From: Rubrivivax sp.
GTDB taxonomy: Bacteria; Pseudomonadota; Gammaproteobacteria; Burkholderiales; Burkholderiaceae_C
NCBI GenBank assembly: GCA_024641945.1
Contig: JAHECD010000002.1
Coordinates: 1-64,000 of the forward strand
Direction: 5' to 3'
Length of the DNA stretch: 64,000 bases
Below, piece after piece: positions 25,692-36,947 of this stretch; positions within the stretch are counted from its first letter, which is position 1, and every line of letters starts with the position of its first letter. Both the position numbers and the translations under genes were made by a program. Below the pieces are notes generated by a model. That model made no database searches, was not told where the DNA came from, and saw only the letters and a list, made by a program, of their open reading frames with translations.

Positions 25692-25748
25692 CGCCTGGCG
25701 ATCCGCCGGCGAGCCTGCAGGTCGATGCGGGTGGTGGCGAGGGATGTG

Positions 25749-26147
25749 ATGACGAACGTCGCGCGCGCCGCCTGTGCCTATGCCGGCGCGGTATTCGCAC
25801 TCGGGTTCCTGCTCGGCATGTTGCGGGCGCTGGTGCTGGCGCCCCGCTGGGGCGAGCTCGCCGCCGTCGGCGCCGAATTGCCACCGATGCTGCTCGCGTC
25901 CTGGTTCATCTGCCGCGCGTTGCTGCGGCGCTGGCCGTTGGCGCGTGCCGGTCGGTACGCGACCATGGGTGCCCTGGCCTTCGTGCTGCTGATGACGCTG
26001 GAGCTGGGATTGGCGGCGACGTTCGGCGAGTCGCCGTCGTCGTACCTCGGCAGGCTCGCCGATCCCGCGGGCGCGCTCGGCCTGGTGGGGCAACTGGGCT
26101 TCGGGCTGATCCCGTGGCTGCAGGCGGTCCTGGCGCGCCGGCACTGA
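25749..26147 (+). CDS. Small four-helix membrane protein of unknown function
   Basis: 132 residues from ATG 25749 (or 140 from ATG 25725). Four hydrophobic segments with short loops: residues about 11-31, 42-63, 72-92 and 105-125 of the shorter form. No recognised family. Convergent with glcF (22 bp between stops). Confidence 0.7.
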   Translation: MTNVARAACAYAGAVFALGFLLGMLRALVLAPRWGELAAVGAELPPMLLASWFICRALLRRWPLARAGRYATMGALAFVLLMTLELGLAATFGESPSSYLGRLADPAGALGLVGQLGFGLIPWLQAVLARRH

Positions 26148-26169
26148 CGCGTCAGCGCGCGGTGCGTGC

Positions 26170-27417
26170 TCAGCCTGCGAGCGCCTCGTCCACCACTTCG
26201 ACCCAGTGTTTCACCGGTGTGGACGTGCCGCTCTGCAGGTGCTGGATGCAACCGACATTGGCCGAAACGATGGCCTGCGCCTGCAGGGGCTCCAGATGGG
26301 CGAGCTTGCGGTCGCGCAGCTGGTAGGCCAGCTCGGGTTGCAGCACGCTGTAGGTGCCGGCCGATCCGCAGCACAGATGGCTCTCGCTCGACGCAATGCT
26401 GACCTCGAAACCCAGCGCGTTGAGATGTTGCTCGACCCCGCCGCGCAGCTGCTGGCCATGCTGCAGCGAACACGGCGGGTGGAAGGCCACCTTGTGGGTC
26501 CGCAGGTTGCGCAGCCGCGGTTTCAGCGGGCCCACCAGGTCGGGCAGCAGTTCGCTCAGGTCGCGCGTCAACTCGCTGACGCGGCGCGCCTTTTCGGCGT
26601 AGTGCGGGTCGTGTGCGAGGGCGTGGCCGTAGTCCTTGACGGTGGCGCCGCAGCCCGACGCGTTCATCACGATCGACTCCACCTTGCCCTGCGAGGTGAG
26701 CCCCTCGACCAGCGGCCACCAGGCGTCGATGTTGCGGCGCATGTCGGCGAGGCCGCCGTCGATGTCGTTCAGGTGCGTGCGCAGCGCGCCGCAGCAACCT
26801 GCACCGTCGGCCACCAGCGTCTGGATGCCGGCGGCGTCGAGCACGCGTGCGGTGGCGCTGTTGATGTTGGGCATCATCGCGGGCTGCACGCAGCCCAGGA
26901 GCATCAACACCTTGCGCGGGTGCTCGCGCGTGGGCCATAGCTTCGCGCGTGCGCCGGCGTTCGCCGGCACCTTGTTCTTCAGCGTGGCAGGCAACAACGG
27001 GCGCACGAACTGGCCGACCTTCATCGCCGGGCCGAACAGCGACGAAGTCAGGCCCTCCTTGAGCAACCAGCGCACCGCCTTCTCACCGGCCGGGCGCTCG
27101 ACACGTTGCTCCACGATCTTGCGGCCTATGTCGACGAGGTGCCCGTATTGCACGCCGCTCGGACATGTGCTCTCGCAGTTGCGGCAGGTGAGGCAGCGGT
27201 CGAGGTGCAGCTGCGTGCTGCGCGTGACCGGCGCACCCTCGAGGACCTGCTTCATCAGGTAGATGCGCCCGCGTGGGCCGTCGAGCTCGTCCCCGAGCAA
27301 CTGGTAGGTCGGGCAGGTGGCGGTGCAGAAGCCGCAGTGCACGCACTTGCGCAGGATGGCCTCGGCCGCCTCGCCGTCGCGCGTGCCTTTGAATTCGGGT
27401 GCCAGTGTGGTTTGCAT
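26170..27417 (-). CDS. glcF: Glycolate oxidase iron-sulfur subunit GlcF
   Basis: 415 residues. Two 4Fe-4S motifs, CVHCGFCTATCP (about 25-36) and CLTCRNCESTCP (about 77-88), then two CCG domains (LGCVQPAM ... GAGCCGALR and HPPCSLQH ... LCCGSAGTY). It takes electrons from GlcD/GlcE to the quinone pool. Last gene of the glcD-glcE-methyltransferase-lrgA-lrgB-glcF series, 20 bp after lrgB; in E. coli glcF follows glcE directly, so here it has been separated by three genes. Confidence 0.95.
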   Translation of the reverse strand: MQTTLAPEFKGTRDGEAAEAILRKCVHCGFCTATCPTYQLLGDELDGPRGRIYLMKQVLEGAPVTRSTQLHLDRCLTCRNCESTCPSGVQYGHLVDIGRKIVEQRVERPAGEKAVRWLLKEGLTSSLFGPAMKVGQFVRPLLPATLKNKVPANAGARAKLWPTREHPRKVLMLLGCVQPAMMPNINSATARVLDAAGIQTLVADGAGCCGALRTHLNDIDGGLADMRRNIDAWWPLVEGLTSQGKVESIVMNASGCGATVKDYGHALAHDPHYAEKARRVSELTRDLSELLPDLVGPLKPRLRNLRTHKVAFHPPCSLQHGQQLRGGVEQHLNALGFEVSIASSESHLCCGSAGTYSVLQPELAYQLRDRKLAHLEPLQAQAIVSANVGCIQHLQSGTSTPVKHWVEVVDEALAG

Positions 27418-27436
27418 GGAGTGGGTGCGTGGGAGA

Positions 27437-28150
27437 TCAGAGGAGACGCAGGGCGAACGGCATCAGCAGCGATGCGAGCACCACCTGTAACCCGAGCGCC
27501 AGCGCGGCATAAGCGCCGGCATCGGGATGCACCTGCATTGCACGTGCGGCGCCTATGCCGTGGGAGGCTGTGCCGAGGGCAAAGCCACGCACGATCGGGT
27601 TGGTGATGTGCAGTGCATCGAAAAGGTATTTGCCGCTCACCGCGCCGACCAGGCCCGACAGCACGGCAAAAACCGCAGCGAGCGCGGGAATGCCGCCGAT
27701 CTGCGCGGCAATGCCCATGGCCACTGGCGCCGTCACCGACTTGGGCGCGAGTGAAGCGAGCAGGTCAGGCGGCAGGCCGAGGGCCCAGCCGATGCCCACC
27801 GCGGACCCCGCCGATGCAGCGCCGCCGGCCAACGCCGCCGCCAGCAGCGGCCACACGCGCGCGCGCAATTCGGCACGCCTTTGCCAAAGGGGCCACGCGA
27901 GCGCCACCACCGCCGGGCCGAGCAGGAAATGGATGAACTGCGCACCCGAGAAATAGGTCGGGTACGGCACGCCCGTGGCCGTCAGCAGGGCGCCAAGCGT
28001 CAGCACGGTCCAGAGCACGGGGTTGGCCCAAGGCGGTTGGCCCCAACGCAGGTAAATGCCTTGCGCCAGTACGTACAGCGTGAGCGTGGCCGTCAAGCCG
28101 AACAACGGCGTGGCCGACAGGTAGACCCAGAGTTCGACGAAGCTTTGCAC
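27437..28150 (-). CDS. lrgB: LrgB/CidB-family membrane protein
   Basis: 237 residues with about six to seven hydrophobic helices. Diagnostic segments: LAPKSVTAPVAMGIAAQIGG and GFALGTASHGIGAARAM. LrgB pairs with LrgA as a two-component transporter; the plant homologue PLGG1 (an LrgA-LrgB fusion) carries glycolate and glycerate, and B. subtilis PftAB carries pyruvate. Between lrgA and glcF in a glycolate oxidase operon, a role in glycolate or lactate transport is a reasonable inference; the older holin/antiholin view comes from Staphylococcus. Confidence 0.93.
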   Translation of the reverse strand: MQSFVELWVYLSATPLFGLTATLTLYVLAQGIYLRWGQPPWANPVLWTVLTLGALLTATGVPYPTYFSGAQFIHFLLGPAVVALAWPLWQRRAELRARVWPLLAAALAGGAASAGSAVGIGWALGLPPDLLASLAPKSVTAPVAMGIAAQIGGIPALAAVFAVLSGLVGAVSGKYLFDALHITNPIVRGFALGTASHGIGAARAMQVHPDAGAYAALALGLQVVLASLLMPFALRLL

Positions 28151-28201
28151 GGTCGGTCGCCGCTCAGGCGCGTGCGTCGCGGCCGCGACGTTCGAGCCGG
28201 G

Positions 28202-28555
28202 TCATGCCTGCGCCCCGGTACGGGCAAGCGCGGCGCGCAAGACCAGCGCCCCCACGGCCAGGCCGGCCCAGGTCGACAACACGATGGCGGCCAGCATGCG
28301 CACGCCGTACTCACCCACGAGCGCCAGGTGCGTGATCACGCCCACGCCGACCGGCACGAAGAGCAGTGACAGATGGGCGAGCAAGGGCTCGGCCGCCGCG
28401 GCCACCGGCGTGTGCGACGCGCGCACCCGAAGCAGCAGGAAGAGCAACAGCAGGCCGATCACGGGACCGGGCAGCGGTACGTGGGCCAGGCGGGCGAGCG
28501 CCTCCCCGGCCGACTGGCACAGCAGCAAGAGGGCGAGGCCACGCAGCAGATTCAT
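28202..28555 (-). CDS. lrgA: LrgA/CidA-family membrane protein
   Basis: 117 residues with four helices. The signature VPLPGPVIGLLLLFLLL and LLFVPVGVGVITHLALV are those of the LrgA/CidA family. It precedes lrgB by 51 bp and follows the methyltransferase gene with 9 bp between. The pair is expected to form one membrane complex. Confidence 0.92.
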   Translation of the reverse strand: MNLLRGLALLLLCQSAGEALARLAHVPLPGPVIGLLLLFLLLRVRASHTPVAAAAEPLLAHLSLLFVPVGVGVITHLALVGEYGVRMLAAIVLSTWAGLAVGALVLRAALARTGAQA

Positions 28556-28564
28556 GGCAGTTCT

Positions 28565-29227
28565 TCAGCGCAGGCGGTAGCTCAACTGCCAGTAGTGGCG
28601 GTGGTCGGCCCACCGTGCATCCTCGGCACGCGGTCCCAATGCGGCAAAGGCTTCTTCGCGCGTCGGGAAATTCTTCAGCACCTCGTGCACCGAACCATCG
28701 TCGAGGGTCCGGCACTGGTAGGTGTTGCCGTCGGGATCGCGCCGCGACAGCGGCGTGCTGCTCGTCTGCACGTAGCGGTTGTCCAGAAAGACGACGCGCG
28801 CGCCCGCTTCGAGCCTCGAGTGCAGCAGGTCGAGCCAGCCGGACAGCCGCTGCAGCGGCACGTGGCTCCACCAGCAGCCCGCAAACGCCGCGTCGAAGGT
28901 CTCACCCGGCAGGCCGTGCAGGGTGTAGGCGTCGACCGTCGCGAAACGCACCTTGCCCGCGGGCATCGGCTTTTCGCGCGCCAGGGCCATCGTCTCGGGG
29001 TTCAGGTCGGTCGCGAGCCAGCTCTCGCAATCGCGCGCGCCGTGGGGTGTCCACCAGCCCGTGCCGCAGGCGATCTCCAGCACACGGCGGCCGGAAAAGG
29101 GCGCGGCCATGCCGGCTTCCATCACCCGAAGGTCGGCCTGCCGTTCGGGCTTGAGATAGACCCGCTCGTAGTACGCGGCGCGCTGCGCGTAGTAGGCGCG
29201 CATGTCGTCGACGACGTCGCTGCGCAT
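28565..29227 (-). CDS. SAM-dependent methyltransferase
   Basis: 220 residues, Rossmann-type class I methyltransferase: motif I VLEIACGTGWWTP, motif II LATDLNPETM, motif III/IV AAFAGCWWSHVPL and SRLEAGARVVFLDNRYV. The substrate is unknown; it resembles small-molecule methyltransferases with an unusual FDAAFAGCWWSH segment. It starts 2 bp after the glcE stop and sits inside the glycolate oxidase operon. Confidence 0.88.
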   Translation of the reverse strand: MRSDVVDDMRAYYAQRAAYYERVYLKPERQADLRVMEAGMAAPFSGRRVLEIACGTGWWTPHGARDCESWLATDLNPETMALAREKPMPAGKVRFATVDAYTLHGLPGETFDAAFAGCWWSHVPLQRLSGWLDLLHSRLEAGARVVFLDNRYVQTSSTPLSRRDPDGNTYQCRTLDDGSVHEVLKNFPTREEAFAALGPRAEDARWADHRHYWQLSYRLR

Positions 29228-29229
29228 GC

Positions 29230-30318
29230 TCACAGGCCCGGGAACAGCCGGCCGGGGTTGAAAAGGCCGTCCGGGTCGAAGGCCGTCTTCAGGTTGCGGT
29301 GGATGCGTTCGAGCGGTGCGGACAGCGGCGCGAAGGTGCCTGCGCTCTTGTCCTGCGCACGGAAGAGAACGGCGTGGCCGCCGGCGGCGGCTGCCGCCTG
29401 GCGCACCAACGCCGGCGCCAGGGGGGTGCAGAGCCAGCGTTGCGCGCCGCCCCACTCGATGAGCTGCTGGCCTGCCAGCTTGAGCGGCGGCGCGATGCCC
29501 GGCACCGACAGGCGCCACAGGGCTGCGCCGCTCTGCGCCGCGTTCGCGGCACCGACGAAGAATTCGTCGGTCTGGTCGCGCAGCCCGTTCCAGAAGACGC
29601 CAGCCATGGAGGGTTCGATGGGTTCGCCGCCAAGGCGTGTGTGGGCCGCGTCGACGGCGGCCGCGGCGCCGGCCAGGCGCACGACGAGCGTGCCGTCCCA
29701 CCAGGCACTCGCGTTCAGCGGCAGCGGCTGGCCGCTCCACCGGTTGAGCTGCTCGAGCGCACGCGCCTCGTCCACATCGAAGCGCAGCGTGCGCGTGGCC
29801 ACGGGACGCGGCAGCACCTTCAGCGACACCTCGCAGATCACGCCCAGGATGCCCATGGACCCGGCGAACGAGCGCGCGGCGTCGTACCCGGCCACGTTCT
29901 TCATCACCTGGCCGCCGAAGCTCAGCACTTCGGCGCGGCCGTTGAGCACGGTGGCGCCGAGCACGTGGTCACGCACGCTGCCCACGGCCGCCCGCGCCGG
30001 CCCGCTCAACCCGGCGGCCACCATGCCGCCGACCGTGCCCGCCGCGCCGAAGCGAGGCGGCTCGAAAGGCAGGCACTGGCCCTTTTCGGCGAGGACGGCT
30101 TCCATTTCGGCCAACCGCGTGCCCGCGCGCACGGTGACCACCAGCTCGCTCGGCTCGTAGCTGCTGATGCCGCATAGCGGTGTGATGTCGAGGGGTTCGC
30201 CCCGAGGGGCTTCGCCATAGAAGACCTTGGTCTGGCCACCGCGGATGTCGAGCGGTGCGCGCTGCGCGCGCGCGGTCTGCACCTGATCGACCAGGCGGGC
30301 AAGCGCGGCATCGGCCAT
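29230..30318 (-). CDS. glcE: Glycolate oxidase FAD-binding subunit GlcE
   Basis: 362 residues with a FAD-binding PCMH fold: the N-terminal domain (about 1-170) with FGAAGTVGGMVAAGLSGP and GQVMKNVAGYDAARSFAGSMG, then a cap region and short tail (DPDGLFNPGRLFPGL). It forms GlcDEF with the flanking genes and oxidises glycolate to glyoxylate. The start overlaps the glcD stop by 1 nt (TGATG). Confidence 0.95.
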   Translation of the reverse strand: MADAALARLVDQVQTARAQRAPLDIRGGQTKVFYGEAPRGEPLDITPLCGISSYEPSELVVTVRAGTRLAEMEAVLAEKGQCLPFEPPRFGAAGTVGGMVAAGLSGPARAAVGSVRDHVLGATVLNGRAEVLSFGGQVMKNVAGYDAARSFAGSMGILGVICEVSLKVLPRPVATRTLRFDVDEARALEQLNRWSGQPLPLNASAWWDGTLVVRLAGAAAAVDAAHTRLGGEPIEPSMAGVFWNGLRDQTDEFFVGAANAAQSGAALWRLSVPGIAPPLKLAGQQLIEWGGAQRWLCTPLAPALVRQAAAAAGGHAVLFRAQDKSAGTFAPLSAPLERIHRNLKTAFDPDGLFNPGRLFPGL

Positions 30319-31808
30319 CAGAATCGCTCCAGCTCAGGGAACGGCAGCAGCCCCTTGCGCACGTGCATCTTCCCGTATTCCGCGCAGCGTTGCAGGGTGG
30401 GGATCACCTTGCCGGGGTTGAGCAGTTCCTCCGGATCGAAGGCCCGTTTGAGCGCAAACATCTGCTCGCGCTCCTCGGGCGAGAACTGCACGCACATCGA
30501 ACTGAGCTTCTCGATGCCCACGCCATGTTCGCCGGTGACGGTGCCACCGAACTGCACGCTGGTCTCCAGGATGTCGGCACCGAACTGCTCGCACCGGTGC
30601 AGTTGATCGGGGTCGTTGGCGTCGAACAGGATCAGCGGGTGCAGGTTGCCGTCGCCGGCATGGAAGACGTTGCAGCACTTCAACCCGTATTTCTGCTCCA
30701 TCGCGCCGATCGCCAGCAGGATGTCGGCCAGGCGCTTGCGCGGGATGGTCGAGTCCATGCACATGTAGTCGGGGCTGATGCGCCCGCTGGCCGGGAAGGC
30801 GTTCTTGCGCCCGCTCCAGAATTTCAGGCGTTGCGCCTCGTCCTTGCTCACTTCCATGCGCGTGGCGCCGGCGCCGGCCAGCACGTCGAGCATGCGGCCG
30901 ATCTCCTCGGCCACCTCTTCCGGCGTGCCATCGCTCTCGCACAGCAGGATCGCCTGCGCGTCGAGGTCGTAGCCGGCGTGCACGAAGTCCTCCACCGCGG
31001 CCGTCATCGGCTTGTCCATCATCTCCAGCCCGGCCGGGATGATGCCGGCGGCGATGATGTCCGCCACGGCGTCGCCGGCTTTGCGGATGTCGTCGAAGCT
31101 GGCCATGATGCAGCGCGCCAGCTGCGGCTTGGGAACGAGCTTGACCGTGACCTCGGTGGTCACCGCGAGCATGCCTTCGCTGCCGACGATGAGCGGCATG
31201 AGGTCCAGCCCGGCGCAATCGAGCGCCGCCGAACCGAACTCCACGGCCTCGCCCTCGACGGTGAAGCCGCGCACGCGCAGCACGTTGTGCAGCGTCAGGC
31301 CGTATTTGAGGCAATGCACGCCGCCGGAGTTCTCGGCCACGTTGCCGCCGATCGTGCAGGCGATCTGGCTGCTCGGGTCCGGCGCGTAGTACAGGCCGTG
31401 CGGCGCCGCCGCCTCGCTGATGGCCAGGTTTCGCACGCCGCACTGCACGGTCGCCGTGCGGCTGTAAGCATCGACCGTCAGGATCTTGTTGAAACGCGCC
31501 AGCGACAGCGTCACGCCCTGGGTGTGTGGCAGCGCGCCGCCCGAAAGGCCGGTACCGGCGCCGCGCGCCACCACGGGCACGCGCAACGCGTGGCAAGCCT
31601 TCAGCACCGCAGCGACCTGCGCTTCGGTTTCCGGCAGCACGACCACGAGCGGCTGGGCGCGGTACGCGGTCAGCCCGTCGCACTCGTAGGGGACCGTGTC
31701 CTCGGTCTGCCAGAGCAGGGCATGGGCAGGCAGCAGCGGGGCAAGCTGCGCGACGACCTCGCGCTGGCGGTCGCCGCGCGTGACGGCCTCGGGGTTCATT
31801 GCACTCAT
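30318..31808 (-). CDS. glcD: Glycolate oxidase catalytic subunit GlcD
   Basis: 496 residues. FAD-linked oxidase: FAD-binding segment ARGAGTGLSGGALPHTQG, IACTIGGNVAENSGG, active-site region GDGNLHPLILFD and GEHGVGIEKL, and C-terminal LNPGKVIPT. It catalyses glycolate (and D-lactate) oxidation with FAD. Start ATG 31808 or, three codons later, ATG 31799. TAAAGT (31816-31821) lies 7 nt before the first ATG, so this probably marks the operon promoter. First gene of the operon. Confidence 0.96.
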   Translation of the reverse strand: MSAMNPEAVTRGDRQREVVAQLAPLLPAHALLWQTEDTVPYECDGLTAYRAQPLVVVLPETEAQVAAVLKACHALRVPVVARGAGTGLSGGALPHTQGVTLSLARFNKILTVDAYSRTATVQCGVRNLAISEAAAPHGLYYAPDPSSQIACTIGGNVAENSGGVHCLKYGLTLHNVLRVRGFTVEGEAVEFGSAALDCAGLDLMPLIVGSEGMLAVTTEVTVKLVPKPQLARCIMASFDDIRKAGDAVADIIAAGIIPAGLEMMDKPMTAAVEDFVHAGYDLDAQAILLCESDGTPEEVAEEIGRMLDVLAGAGATRMEVSKDEAQRLKFWSGRKNAFPASGRISPDYMCMDSTIPRKRLADILLAIGAMEQKYGLKCCNVFHAGDGNLHPLILFDANDPDQLHRCEQFGADILETSVQFGGTVTGEHGVGIEKLSSMCVQFSPEEREQMFALKRAFDPEELLNPGKVIPTLQRCAEYGKMHVRKGLLPFPELERF

Positions 31809-31896
31809 GGCGGCGACTTTAGCGCCCGGCACCGGCCGGGCAAGCCCGTTCGCTTGCTGTGGCCCGTCATTTCGGCTTTGACCCGGATGCGGGCAA

Positions 31897-33060
31897 TCAG
31901 CCCTGGGTAAAGACCGTGAGCACGCCGGTGTAGCCGTAGAGGTGATGGCGCGCGATTTCGCCCCCGGCGAAGAAACCGACCAGCGGCACGTCCCCGAGCG
32001 CATGGCGAACGATCTGCAATTCGGCCGACGGCGCGCCGAAGTGCGGGCCGCCCCGCCCGGCGCAGCTGACGTAGACCGCGCCGGCGATGCGGGCGGCGCC
32101 GTCTCCCTCGGCGTCGACCTCGTCGCGGATTTCGCTGCAGATGCGGACCAGGTCTCGACGCGCGGCGTGCACGTCGCGGGTGCAGAACGTCAGGTGCATA
32201 CCGGCTTCCACCTGATCCGCGACCGCCACGGCGTGCCGCCCCGGGTCCAGCCCGATGAGGTGGCGGACGCGGACGTCCGGGCCGAATTGCCCACCACGGC
32301 CGAATGCCGTGTCGCCGGCATCGGTCAGGCCGGCGAGCGTGGCACGCAACCGGGGCAGGGCATCACGCGGGTTGTCCAGGCCGACACCCAGGTCGTCCAG
32401 CAAGCACGGCAGCGCGGGGCGGCCGTCGAGTTCGAGCACGATGTTGCGCTCGGCCGCCGTCACCACCCGTTGCGTGCCGGCGGGCTGGCAGCCCTGGGTC
32501 ACACGGGATACGAACCCCACCTCCCGTGTGAACGCCACCCCCGACAGGCCGCCCTGCCACACCCCTGCGGCCAGCTGGGCAGGCGCAGTGCGCGAGGAGA
32601 CCAGACCACCGAAGAGATAGCCGCTGCGCATGCGGCCGGCAAGCTCGTGGATCAGTTCCTGCATGTCGGGTGCCGATGCGTCCGCGTGCACCAATGCGGC
32701 ATGCGGGTCGATTCGACCGAGCGGCGAGGCACCCGAAAACACCTCGAATTGCGACGCTGGCAGCGGGCAGATCATGAGGACGAGCGCAGGTTCGTCGAAG
32801 TACTCGACGCCTTCCGCGGCCACGCCCACACCCGTGCAGCCGGCCCAGGTGCAATGTGGCCATTGCTCTCGCAAGGCCTGATGCAAGGCGCCGGCCTGCG
32901 CGGCGTAGTGATCCGTCAGGTAGACCAGACCGAGTCCGGCGGGCGCGCCCTGGCCGACCGCGGCGGCCCGCGCATCGATCTGCGCCGCGGCGAGCGCCAG
33001 CGCCATGCGCCAGTCGGGGTGCGTGGCATGGCCTGCAAGAAAGCGGCCGGCATGGCTCAT
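31897..33060 (-). CDS. FIST N/C-domain protein
   Basis: 387 residues: FIST_N (about 35-225; QALREQWPHCTWAGCTGVGV) and FIST_C (about 230-375; ending GDVPLVGFFAGGEIARHHLYGYTGVLTVFTQG). FIST domains are thought to sense small molecules such as amino acids. No membrane helix, so cytosolic. It lies 17 bp after phaM on the same strand. Function unknown. Confidence 0.9.
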   Translation of the reverse strand: MSHAGRFLAGHATHPDWRMALALAAAQIDARAAAVGQGAPAGLGLVYLTDHYAAQAGALHQALREQWPHCTWAGCTGVGVAAEGVEYFDEPALVLMICPLPASQFEVFSGASPLGRIDPHAALVHADASAPDMQELIHELAGRMRSGYLFGGLVSSRTAPAQLAAGVWQGGLSGVAFTREVGFVSRVTQGCQPAGTQRVVTAAERNIVLELDGRPALPCLLDDLGVGLDNPRDALPRLRATLAGLTDAGDTAFGRGGQFGPDVRVRHLIGLDPGRHAVAVADQVEAGMHLTFCTRDVHAARRDLVRICSEIRDEVDAEGDGAARIAGAVYVSCAGRGGPHFGAPSAELQIVRHALGDVPLVGFFAGGEIARHHLYGYTGVLTVFTQG

Positions 33061-33954: not shown

Positions 33955-34599
33955 TCAAAGGCCGGCCCCGTCGCCGGTCAGTCCGTTGCTGATGGCATAT
34001 CGGACGAGGTCTGCGTTGTTGTCGATGCGCAACTTTTGCATCAGCCGGGTCTTGTGTGTGCTCACCGTCTTTGCGCTCACGTGCAGCCGATCGGCGATGT
34101 CTCCCAGGCGCACGCCGGCCACGATCAGGCCGAGCACCTGACGTTCGCGTGCCGACAGCGTGTCGTGCAGCGGCATCGGCATCGACGCGTGATCGAACAC
34201 CACGCCCTCGACCAGCGACGGGTCGATGAAGCGCCCGCCATCGACCACCCGTGCGATCGCTTCGAGCAGCACGTCGATGCTGCTGCCCTTGGCGACATAG
34301 CCGTTGGCCCCTGCCCGCAATGCCCTCGAGACGACCTGCCCGTCGATATGCATCGACAGCACCAGGATCGGCAGCGTCGGCCGCAGTTCGCGCAGGGCCT
34401 TGACCAGCGTCACCCCGCTCGGCCCCGGCATCTTCATGTCGAGCAGAACGAGATCGACGTTGCTGTCGACGGCGCGCTCCAGCGTGGCCGCGGCGCTGGC
34501 GGCCTCGGCCGCCACGACCAGGTCGGGCCGGTCCGACAGGAGCTGCACCAGGCCACTGCGGACGATCGCGTGATCATCGGCGATGAGCAGGCGGATCAT
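33955..34599 (-). CDS. NarL/LuxR-family response regulator
   Basis: 214 residues. Receiver domain with acidic D8/D9, phosphorylation site D54 (LVLLDMKMPG), and K105 (VAKGSS); LuxR HTH in the C-terminus (LSARERQVLGLIVAGVRLGDIADRLHVSAKTVSTHK). The start overlaps the upstream kinase stop (ATGA). Cognate partner of the four-PAS kinase. Target genes cannot be read from sequence. Confidence 0.95.
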   Translation of the reverse strand: MIRLLIADDHAIVRSGLVQLLSDRPDLVVAAEAASAAATLERAVDSNVDLVLLDMKMPGPSGVTLVKALRELRPTLPILVLSMHIDGQVVSRALRAGANGYVAKGSSIDVLLEAIARVVDGGRFIDPSLVEGVVFDHASMPMPLHDTLSARERQVLGLIVAGVRLGDIADRLHVSAKTVSTHKTRLMQKLRIDNNADLVRYAISNGLTGDGAGL

Positions 34600-36947
34600 G
34601 GGCGGGCTCCTGGCTCGGCAGGGGGTGGCAAGCGCACGCTGATGGTCGTGCCCGCACCGGGCCGGCTCTGGACATGGCATTGCGCGCCCAGCCGCAGCGC
34701 CCGCTCGCGCATGCCGAGCAGGCCGAAGTGCCCCAGCGCGCGGGCGCGCTGGGCGTCGAAGCCGCAGCCGTCGTCCCGCACCCGCATGCACAGGGCGCCG
34801 TCGATCCTCTGCAGCGACACCCAGACCTCGTTGGCACCTGCATGGCGCGCAATGTTGGTCAGCGACTCCTGGGCAATGCGGAAGAGTTCGATCGACGCCT
34901 TTTCGTCGAGGTCGACGTCGCCAATCGTCGTCTCCACGCGGCAAGGGGTCTCGGTGCGCAGCGTGAAGTCTTCGGCAAGCCATTCGAGCGCGGGAACCAG
35001 CCCGAGGTCGAGTGCGGCCGGCCGCAGGCTGAGGGCCACGTTGCGCGTGATTTCTATCGTGTCCTCGACCAGGCCGCGCAGCCTTTCGGCGGACGTTGCC
35101 ACCGCGCGCATGTTGCCGATCCGCGATTGCAGGATGTCGAGCTGGAGTTTCATGGCGGTGAGCATCTGGCCGACTTCGTCGTGCACATCGAGTGCGATGC
35201 GCTTGCGTTCCTGGTCGAGTTCGTCCTCTCGGTGGCTGGAAAGCTCGCGCACCTGATCGCGTGCCTCGCGCAGCTCGATTTCGCCACGCTTGCGCTCGGT
35301 GATGTCCTGCAGCGTGCCAAAGAGCCGCAGCGCACGCCCGGGCCGCGCGCGTGCGGCCTCTCCGCGGGCGGTACCCCAGCCGGTGCTGCCGTCGGTGCGC
35401 ATGAACTCGACTTCCACCTCGTAGGGCTGGCCCTGATCGATCGAATCCCGGACGGCGGCCTGCAGCCGCTGCCAGCTCTGTGGCCTGAAGAAACGCTCGC
35501 ATGCCACGACAGCCAGATCGAGCGATGACAGGTCCACACGCAGGATTCGGCGGAGTTCGGGCGACAGGCTCAGGCGGTTGGCATCCTGCTGCCACGACCA
35601 ACTCCCCAACTGGGCGATGCGTTGGGCCTGCGCGAGTTCGGCCGCGCTGGTGCGCAGCGCCGATTCGGCGTGCCGGCGCTCGGTGACGTCCTGTAGCGTT
35701 CCGGTCAGCCCGCGCACGACGCCGGTATCGGTGCGAACCACGCGGATCTGCATGTGCAGATGTCGCACGCCGCCCGGCAATACCAGGCGCATGTCTTCGT
35801 CGGTGGGCTTCCAGTCGCCCTCGATCGCCCGGAACGTCCGGCTCACCCGCGGCAGGTCGTCGGCATGCACCCGCGCCAGGAAACGTGCGGTCGACGGCTC
35901 GCACTCGCCCGGTTCGTAACCCAGCAGCCTGAATGCCTCGTCGGACCAATGCTGGCGCATCGAGGGAAGGTCGACACGCCAGTCGCCCAGGCGCGCGATC
36001 GTCTGGGCCTGCTGCAGGCGCGCGCGGCTCTCCCGAACCAGACGCTCATCCCGGCGCGGCTTGTCGATGTCGTTCAGCGTGCTGACGGCCCGCGTGGGTC
36101 GACCGTCGACGTCTTTCTGGAAGGTACGGCCCTGGGCGCGCAGCCAGATCCATCGACCGTCGCGGTGCATGCGGCGCGCTTCGAGATGAAAGGTTTCCGA
36201 ATCGCCGCTGCGGATGCGTTCGCGTCCGGCCGCGAGAGCCGCGGCATCGTCCGGATGCACCAAGGGCTCCCAGCCGGCCACGAACCACTCGCGCTCTTCG
36301 GGCCCGTACCCGAAGATGCGCAGGTACTCGTCGGAGTAGTAGCCACTTCGGCGGGGTAGCTCGATGTCGTACAGCCCGAGACCTGCGGTCATCAGGGCCA
36401 CGCGCAGGCGTTGCTCGCTCGTCGCGAGCATCTCTTCGGCCTGCACGGCCGCGGTGACGTCCCGCGAGGCCGACAGCACCGAGGTGACCCTGGTCGGGTC
36501 GGCGGGATCCTCGTGCAGCGGCACGGCCAGGGTTTCGAGCCACGCCCAGGATCCGTCGTGGCGCCTGAACCGGTAGCGGGCCGTCTGCTGCGTGAAGCCC
36601 GCGAGCACACGGTCGCGCACGGCGTGACGCAGGCGGGCACGGTCGTCGTGGTGGTAGTAGTCGCTGGGATCGGCGCCGATCAATTCCTCTGGGGGGTACC
36701 CCAGAATGGCAAGCGACGACGGGCTGACGTACAGGTACCGTGATGAAGGTGCGTGCAGGGCCAGCAGATCGCGCCCTTGCTCGACGATGGCGCGGAACCG
36801 GTGCGCAATCACGGTGTCCACTGCACCGTTTGCGCCGCCCGGCCGCAGCGTCACCTCGCCGTTAGGCAGTGGTTGCGAATCAGGTGGCGAGTCGGCGGAG
36901 TTTTCGCGCTCGACACGGGCCGCCGGCGCAGTTTTTTGTTCTCCCAT
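34596..36947 (-). CDS. Cytosolic sensor histidine kinase with four PAS domains (NarL-type)
   Basis: 783 residues without any membrane helix. Four PAS/PAC units (about 48-170, 182-300, 310-430, 440-555), then HisKA_3 with phospho-acceptor H589 (KRIALDVHDEVGQM) and an HATPase domain (about 680-775; VRDDGCGFDAQR, HFGLLGMRERALRLG). It would detect an internal signal, such as redox state, light or a ligand; no heme or flavin motif was confirmed. CATAAT (36953-36958) lies 5 nt before the ATG and no Shine-Dalgarno is seen. Confidence 0.93.
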   Translation of the reverse strand: MGEQKTAPAARVERENSADSPPDSQPLPNGEVTLRPGGANGAVDTVIAHRFRAIVEQGRDLLALHAPSSRYLYVSPSSLAILGYPPEELIGADPSDYYHHDDRARLRHAVRDRVLAGFTQQTARYRFRRHDGSWAWLETLAVPLHEDPADPTRVTSVLSASRDVTAAVQAEEMLATSEQRLRVALMTAGLGLYDIELPRRSGYYSDEYLRIFGYGPEEREWFVAGWEPLVHPDDAAALAAGRERIRSGDSETFHLEARRMHRDGRWIWLRAQGRTFQKDVDGRPTRAVSTLNDIDKPRRDERLVRESRARLQQAQTIARLGDWRVDLPSMRQHWSDEAFRLLGYEPGECEPSTARFLARVHADDLPRVSRTFRAIEGDWKPTDEDMRLVLPGGVRHLHMQIRVVRTDTGVVRGLTGTLQDVTERRHAESALRTSAAELAQAQRIAQLGSWSWQQDANRLSLSPELRRILRVDLSSLDLAVVACERFFRPQSWQRLQAAVRDSIDQGQPYEVEVEFMRTDGSTGWGTARGEAARARPGRALRLFGTLQDITERKRGEIELREARDQVRELSSHREDELDQERKRIALDVHDEVGQMLTAMKLQLDILQSRIGNMRAVATSAERLRGLVEDTIEITRNVALSLRPAALDLGLVPALEWLAEDFTLRTETPCRVETTIGDVDLDEKASIELFRIAQESLTNIARHAGANEVWVSLQRIDGALCMRVRDDGCGFDAQRARALGHFGLLGMRERALRLGAQCHVQSRPGAGTTISVRLPPPAEPGARP

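Follow-up and report, generated by a model that had tools for sequence, protein, structure and literature searches.

It is still debated whether LrgA and LrgB proteins act as holins or transport small acids, and a 64,000-nucleotide stretch of a Rubrivivax sp. genome (GenBank assembly GCA_024641945.1, contig JAHECD010000002.1, positions 1 to 64,000; hereafter the window) poses the question in a definite setting: what does an lrgAB pair do inside an operon for the glycolate oxidase GlcDEF? We think it somewhat more probable than otherwise that LrgAB is a carrier of small 2-hydroxy/2-oxo monocarboxylates that serves GlcDEF in an operon for glycolate (and D-lactate) oxidation, its likeliest task being the import of glycolate/D-lactate. 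An operon that ties LrgAB to glycolate oxidation would offer a bacterial setting for genetic tests of the function of the plant transporter PLGG1; LrgAB could carry the glycolate where a genome lacks a GlcA/LldP-type permease, and an uncharacterised methyltransferase accompanying glcDEF comes into view with it. The parts of this system are known. The operon itself is not described in the titles and abstracts of the literature searched, from which subscription literature was absent, and the operon variant and its recurrence seem new only within that scope.

The operon occupies window positions 26170 to 31808 on the minus strand, its six genes in the order glcD-glcE-methyltransferase-lrgA-lrgB-glcF, and the successive gaps measure -1 (a 1 bp overlap of glcD and glcE), 2, 9, 51 and 19 bp, which agrees with a previous sequence-only reading of the window that gave this order and range on one strand with gaps of at most about 50 bp. 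The operon is real. The product of glcE (29230..30318), the second subunit binding flavin adenine dinucleotide (FAD), and that of glcF (26170..27417), the iron-sulphur subunit, both exceed their NCBIfam equivalog cut-offs (NF008439, 506.6 bits for a cut-off of 284; NF008434, 685 bits for a cut-off of 333). The FAD subunit of glycolate (D-lactate) dehydrogenase encoded by glcD (30318..31808), which carries PF01565 and PF02913, stays below both GlcD equivalog cut-offs (NF008408, 750.2 of 897, E 8.7e-226; TIGR00387, 507.3 of 567.9); GlcD is still its best-matching family, and glcE and glcF are linked to it. Between glcE and glcF lie a predicted accessory class I S-adenosylmethionine-dependent methyltransferase gene with an ATG start (28565..29227; PF13649, 44.7 bits for a cut-off of 27, with PF08241 also passed), lrgA for the small membrane subunit (28202..28555; PF03788, 85 bits for a cut-off of 28) and, with a GTG start, lrgB for the carrier subunit (27437..28150; PF04172, 242.7 bits for a cut-off of 25). 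The two adjacent lrg genes thus both surpass curated family cut-offs, and their products are the sole LrgA and LrgB matches in the host genome. A scan of positions 25700-32300 returned no promoter-like site (0.2 expected) and four terminator-like sites (3.0 expected, standard deviation 1.9), two of them on the operon strand, inside glcE and inside lrgB, and none between any of the six genes. The start of the operon is uncertain because 88 bp separate glcD from an upstream gene of the same strand that has a FIST (sensory) domain (31897-32931); this gene could be part of the operon transcript.

Recurrence in related genomes, whose absence the sequence-only reading had named as one refutation of its proposal, was borne out. 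We examined two collections. The first comprised, out of 324 confirmed LrgB relatives from genome contigs, the 80 that ranked best, and is biased to close relatives; glcD, glcE or glcF occurred within 6 kb of LrgB in 57 of these 80, a lactate-type dehydrogenase in the same range in six (two of them an LldD-like gene on the opposite strand) and no marker gene in 17, with the contig cut just upstream in L013, L043 and L046. The second, the family sample, drew evenly on the window's family for 150 genomes with a completeness of 95% or more; LrgB was present in 75 of them, GlcF in 142 and both in 68. Around the LrgBs of this sample 87 regions were taken; a match below the family cut-off was omitted, a close second copy shared its neighbour's region and the window served as the region of its own genome. 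LrgB was located at most 5 kb from glcD, glcE or glcF in 35 of the 75 LrgB-bearing genomes (a hand-compiled and checked list, with G261 at 5.1 kb not counted), whereas hand arithmetic gives a chance expectation of about 0.4 of 75 for glcD or glcF at that distance, a comparison to be read with the caveat that the 35 genomes are related by descent. The linkage in this family is not due to chance.

The linkage takes several gene orders. In 24 of the 35 genomes the order is glcD-lrgA-lrgB (in L149 and L159 lrgA is separated from glcD by about 1.2 kb), in eight, the window included, lrgAB has glcF on one side and glcE, alone or followed by the methyltransferase gene, on the other, and in three it follows glcF (glcE-glcF-lrgAB). 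Stretches of 14-15 kb around glcF were taken from 19 of the 24 glcD-lrgAB genomes (L208-L226); 18 of them contained glcE-glcF and no glcD, and in the nineteenth (L220) the contig ends inside glcE; therefore, where the operon is split, lrgAB stays with glcD. In the contrasting genome G205 a GlcA-type permease gene, glcD, glcE and glcF stand together and lrgAB is elsewhere. A metagenome bin titled Bordetella parapertussis (L049), a doubtful species label, has the window's own order, glcD-glcE-methyltransferase-lrgA-lrgB-glcF.

Since the pairing of lrgAB with glc genes recurs in related bacteria, the probable role of LrgAB in the glc operon is the transport of small acids, not cell lysis. Its relatives point the same way. 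LrgB has been placed in the CPA/AT clan of carriers, and the transport classification names its family the LrgB/CidB holin-like glycolate/glycerate transporter (both as given in PMC8396727); among solved structures, no relative of LrgB was found by sequence at E up to 1. Bacillus subtilis PftAB is reported as a pyruvate facilitator (PMC5626966) and Staphylococcus aureus LrgAB as contributing to 14C-pyruvate uptake (PMC12632267). These systems and Streptococcus mutans LrgAB share PF03788 and PF04172 with the window pair and have reported pyruvate transport (PMC5626966, PMC12632267, PMC8805020), but the pyruvate transporters are described as under LytST/LytSR control (PMC5626966, PMC12630350) whereas the window pair sits inside glcDEF. 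In the lct cluster of Fusobacterium nucleatum lrgAB is likewise clustered with a dehydrogenase, there a D-lactate dehydrogenase, although that cluster concerns lactate, electron transfer flavoprotein (ETF) and Bcd instead of GlcDEF, and its authors speculate on pyruvate and/or lactate transport by LrgAB (PMC12630350). Escherichia coli YohJK, 38% identical to the window's LrgA over 79 residues and 37% identical to its LrgB over 211 residues, differs in lying outside the glc operon and in its annotation as putative 3-hydroxypropanoate export proteins; its up-regulation is reported to lower intracellular 3-hydroxypropionate (PMC7642389). Because of the pyruvate transport, the 3-hydroxypropionate effect and the Fusobacterium lactate cluster, we take the window's LrgAB as a hydroxy/oxo acid carrier, and it is likely that it is coupled to GlcDEF in that capacity.

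Plant PLGG1, the plastid glycolate/glycerate transporter, belongs to the same LrgA-LrgB family (a likeness at the level of family membership) and, according to PMC5626966, most likely arose when bacterial homologues of lrgA and lrgB fused, whereas the window has two genes 51 bp apart. As for the oxidase, glcD, glcE and glcF are adjacent on one strand in E. coli glcDEFGBA as well; there glcG, glcB and the permease gene glcA follow downstream, unlike the window, where lrgAB and the methyltransferase gene are placed between glcE and glcF in a host genome without PF02652. Cupriavidus necator, a related member of the order, has a glcDEF operon too (glcD-kch-glcE-glcF), whose deletion is reported to abolish growth on glycolate, and in the main text of that paper no word starts with 'lrg' (PMC7486775).

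The neighbours of lrgAB in the family sample bear on the substrate. With the window left out, 86 of the 87 regions gave a classifiable LrgB and L192 did not; we scored neighbourhoods of 6 kb and divided the proteins at 60% identity to the window's LrgB, a threshold set after seeing the data. Among the 48 LrgBs at or above it, 31 were near glc genes and four near lactate-type dehydrogenases; among the 38 below it, four were near glc genes. LutB-type lactate genes lie at most 6 kb from lrgAB in L007, L066, L161 and L190, accompanied by LutA-type genes in three of these, and the LutB/LldF-type iron-sulphur proteins exceed the TIGR00273 cut-off in L066 and fall 10 bits under it in L007. In L124, L140 and L075 the neighbours of lrgAB are an LctP-type permease and a protein resembling FAD/Fe-S hydroxyacid dehydrogenases; the best family of the large FAD protein found with an LctP-type permease is GlcD, below cut-off, and in L124 malate synthase G is on the other side of the locus. 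The probe names D-lactate dehydrogenase and LutA are our own reading and not curated assignments. Such neighbours suggest that similar LrgBs may carry small hydroxy/oxo acids and not glycolate alone. In the mechanism we propose, LrgA and LrgB would together form a membrane carrier of small 2-hydroxy/2-oxo monocarboxylates, glycolate or D-lactate would enter the cell through it, and GlcDEF, as predicted from its sequence, would then oxidise glycolate to glyoxylate and D-lactate to pyruvate. Import of glycolate or D-lactate is the most probable direction, with the chances about evenly balanced.

Several observations weigh against this proposal. In a sample of 150 genomes from the whole order, 43 had both LrgB and GlcF and three had them linked (with a cut-off of E 1e-120 for GlcD): the window's genome and G048, which share a family, and G149, which belongs to a different one; because two of the three are in the window's family, the linkage is mainly a feature of one family. 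GlcDEF often works without LrgB, since of the 142 family-sample genomes with GlcF, 74 have none. No marker gene was near 13 of the 48 LrgBs at or above 60% identity, nor near 34 of the 38 below it, and the relatives linked to lactate genes speak against a carrier restricted to glycolate. Finally, the idea that linked lrgAB replaces a PF02652 permease was not supported, as 13 of 35 linked genomes carry the permease, compared with 49 of the 115 others (p=0.70). The sequence-only reading had taken LrgAB as the glycolate (or lactate) transporter feeding GlcDEF; a carrier role fits what is reported of the relatives (PMC5626966, PMC12632267, PMC7642389), while the glycolate substrate and the import direction are made less sure by the lactate-type neighbours and by three loci (L131, L039 and L068) that combine a GlcA-type permease, glcDEF and lrgAB. 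Because these loci already carry such a permease, lrgAB need not be the importer.

A more specific version of the carrier proposal is tentative: that this clade of bacterial LrgAB serves glycolate oxidation as its dedicated carrier, as a bacterial counterpart of PLGG1, possibly exchanging glycolate/lactate for glyoxylate/pyruvate, and that the methyltransferase clade is a new GlcDEF accessory. Slightly less probable still, and the strongest of the competing explanations, is that LrgAB works as an outlet or exchanger that releases glyoxylate, pyruvate or surplus glycolate from RuBisCO oxygenation and thereby protects the cell or swaps product for substrate. Uptake may be covered already where permease and lrgAB coexist, as in the three loci above and in L124, L140 and L075, and E. 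coli YohJK is described as a 3-hydroxypropionate exporter (PMC7642389). The host genome, on the other hand, contains no PF02652 (GlcA/LldP/LctP-type) permease, although the search did not extend to other importers, among them the type of sodium-solute symporter that E. coli has. Within the 75 LrgB-bearing genomes PF02652 is less frequent in linked than in unlinked ones (13/35 vs 27/40, p=0.011), a contrast that arises because the permease is enriched among unlinked LrgB genomes (27/40 vs 22/75 of those without LrgB, p=0.0001). A permease at most 10 kb from glcF (12 genomes, hand-compiled) and linked lrgAB overlapped in one genome (p=0.30). At G222:C1:1769-2645, in a genome with lrgAB in its glc operon, we observed pieces of a PF02652 permease that contain stop codons.

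RuBisCO figures both for and against an outlet. The host genome encodes a RuBisCO large subunit (L228, G000:C190:666-1586), next to a frame resembling the small subunit and a LysR gene in divergent orientation (open reading frames read by eye), so that 2-phosphoglycolate can be made. RuBisCO was scored in 51 of 60 genomes matching PF00016 (E up to 1e-60), nine with a best match of 1e-60 to 1e-75 being dropped. It showed no link with linked lrgAB overall (15/35 vs 36/115, p=0.23; with all 60 genomes, 17/35 vs 43/115, p=0.24), against the outlet, but in genomes of the glcE/F linkage type it was weakly enriched (7/11 vs 44/139, p=0.046; with all 60, 8/11 vs 52/139, p=0.027; both values uncorrected and post hoc).

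We consider it improbable that the linkage is neutral, an ancestral insertion of lrgAB retained by inertia. Much of the linkage is inherited and concentrated in one family, which favours this reading, and the 13 of 48 close LrgBs without marker genes nearby agree with it; but there are several gene orders, lrgAB remains beside glcD in split operons and the glcE/F-linked LrgBs are not one clade. A quick tree of 124 LrgBs requires 17 or more switches between the linked and the unlinked state; it has long branches and 47 open forks, its details are unsure, and three of its unlinked labels (L013, L043 and L046) are contig-cut. Placing the 24 glcE/F-linked LrgBs in one clade was rejected (p-AU 0.00026), as was a second grouping picked after seeing the tree (p 5.7e-06). 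This non-monophyly fits repeated association, or a few associations followed by many losses; because the gene orders differ, we favour repeated association.

That LrgAB is instead a holin/antiholin-like lysis or cell-death system, present in the operon by happenstance, is very improbable: the nearest NCBIfam models are indeed named autolysis modulator and antiholin, and S. aureus CidA and LrgA are reported to work as holins in a lysis cassette (PMC8805020), but those equivalogs (TIGR00659, NF003155 and NF003291) are not reached (186.2 of 249.7, 48.3 of 136 and 109.5 of 264 bits, respectively), the 11 neighbouring genes that were scanned (not a scan of the full window) include none recognised as a lysis gene, and lrgAB is repeatedly linked to hydroxy-acid dehydrogenases. 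A scan of the neighbourhood, not of the whole genome, found no lytST/lytSR-type pair beside lrgAB, which is flanked by the methyltransferase gene and glcF, and the neighbouring genes scanned showed no regulator of the LytTR type. The window does contain, at 33955-36947, a multi-PAS histidine kinase (HisKA_3) paired with a response regulator of the LuxR type (GerE), not LytTR.

The methyltransferase had been put forward together with LrgAB as a new member of the pathway. As a recurrent partner of glcDEF it holds up; its arrival with lrgAB does not. At E up to 1e-20, relatives occur in 21 of the 150 family-sample genomes and in 11 of these the gene is inside the glc operon. With four loci from the best-80 set these make 15 glc-linked methyltransferases, all on one side of a branch with support 99/96, where none of the ten unlinked copies falls; the root of the tree was not inferred. 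Nine of the 15 operons have the methyltransferase gene without lrgAB, as larger stretches (L194-L202) confirm, which rules out a tie of the methyltransferase to lrgAB instead of glcDEF and means that lrgAB and the methyltransferase each have their own tie to glcDEF. Judged by these comparisons, the methyltransferase is predicted to be a recurrent, lineage-specific accessory of glcDEF, independent of lrgAB. An assignment as the corrinoid protein-associated methyltransferase CpaM fell below its cut-off (NF043040, 40.3 of 180 bits). Open reading frames around the ten unlinked relatives, seven of which have at most about 1.5 kb on each side, revealed no shared neighbourhood. The best solved-structure match (3ou2, E 2.9e-11) reflects general class I similarity. 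In another species of the window's genus (G224, locus L202) the methyltransferase carries an insert of roughly 20 residues, and its reading frame is uninterrupted.

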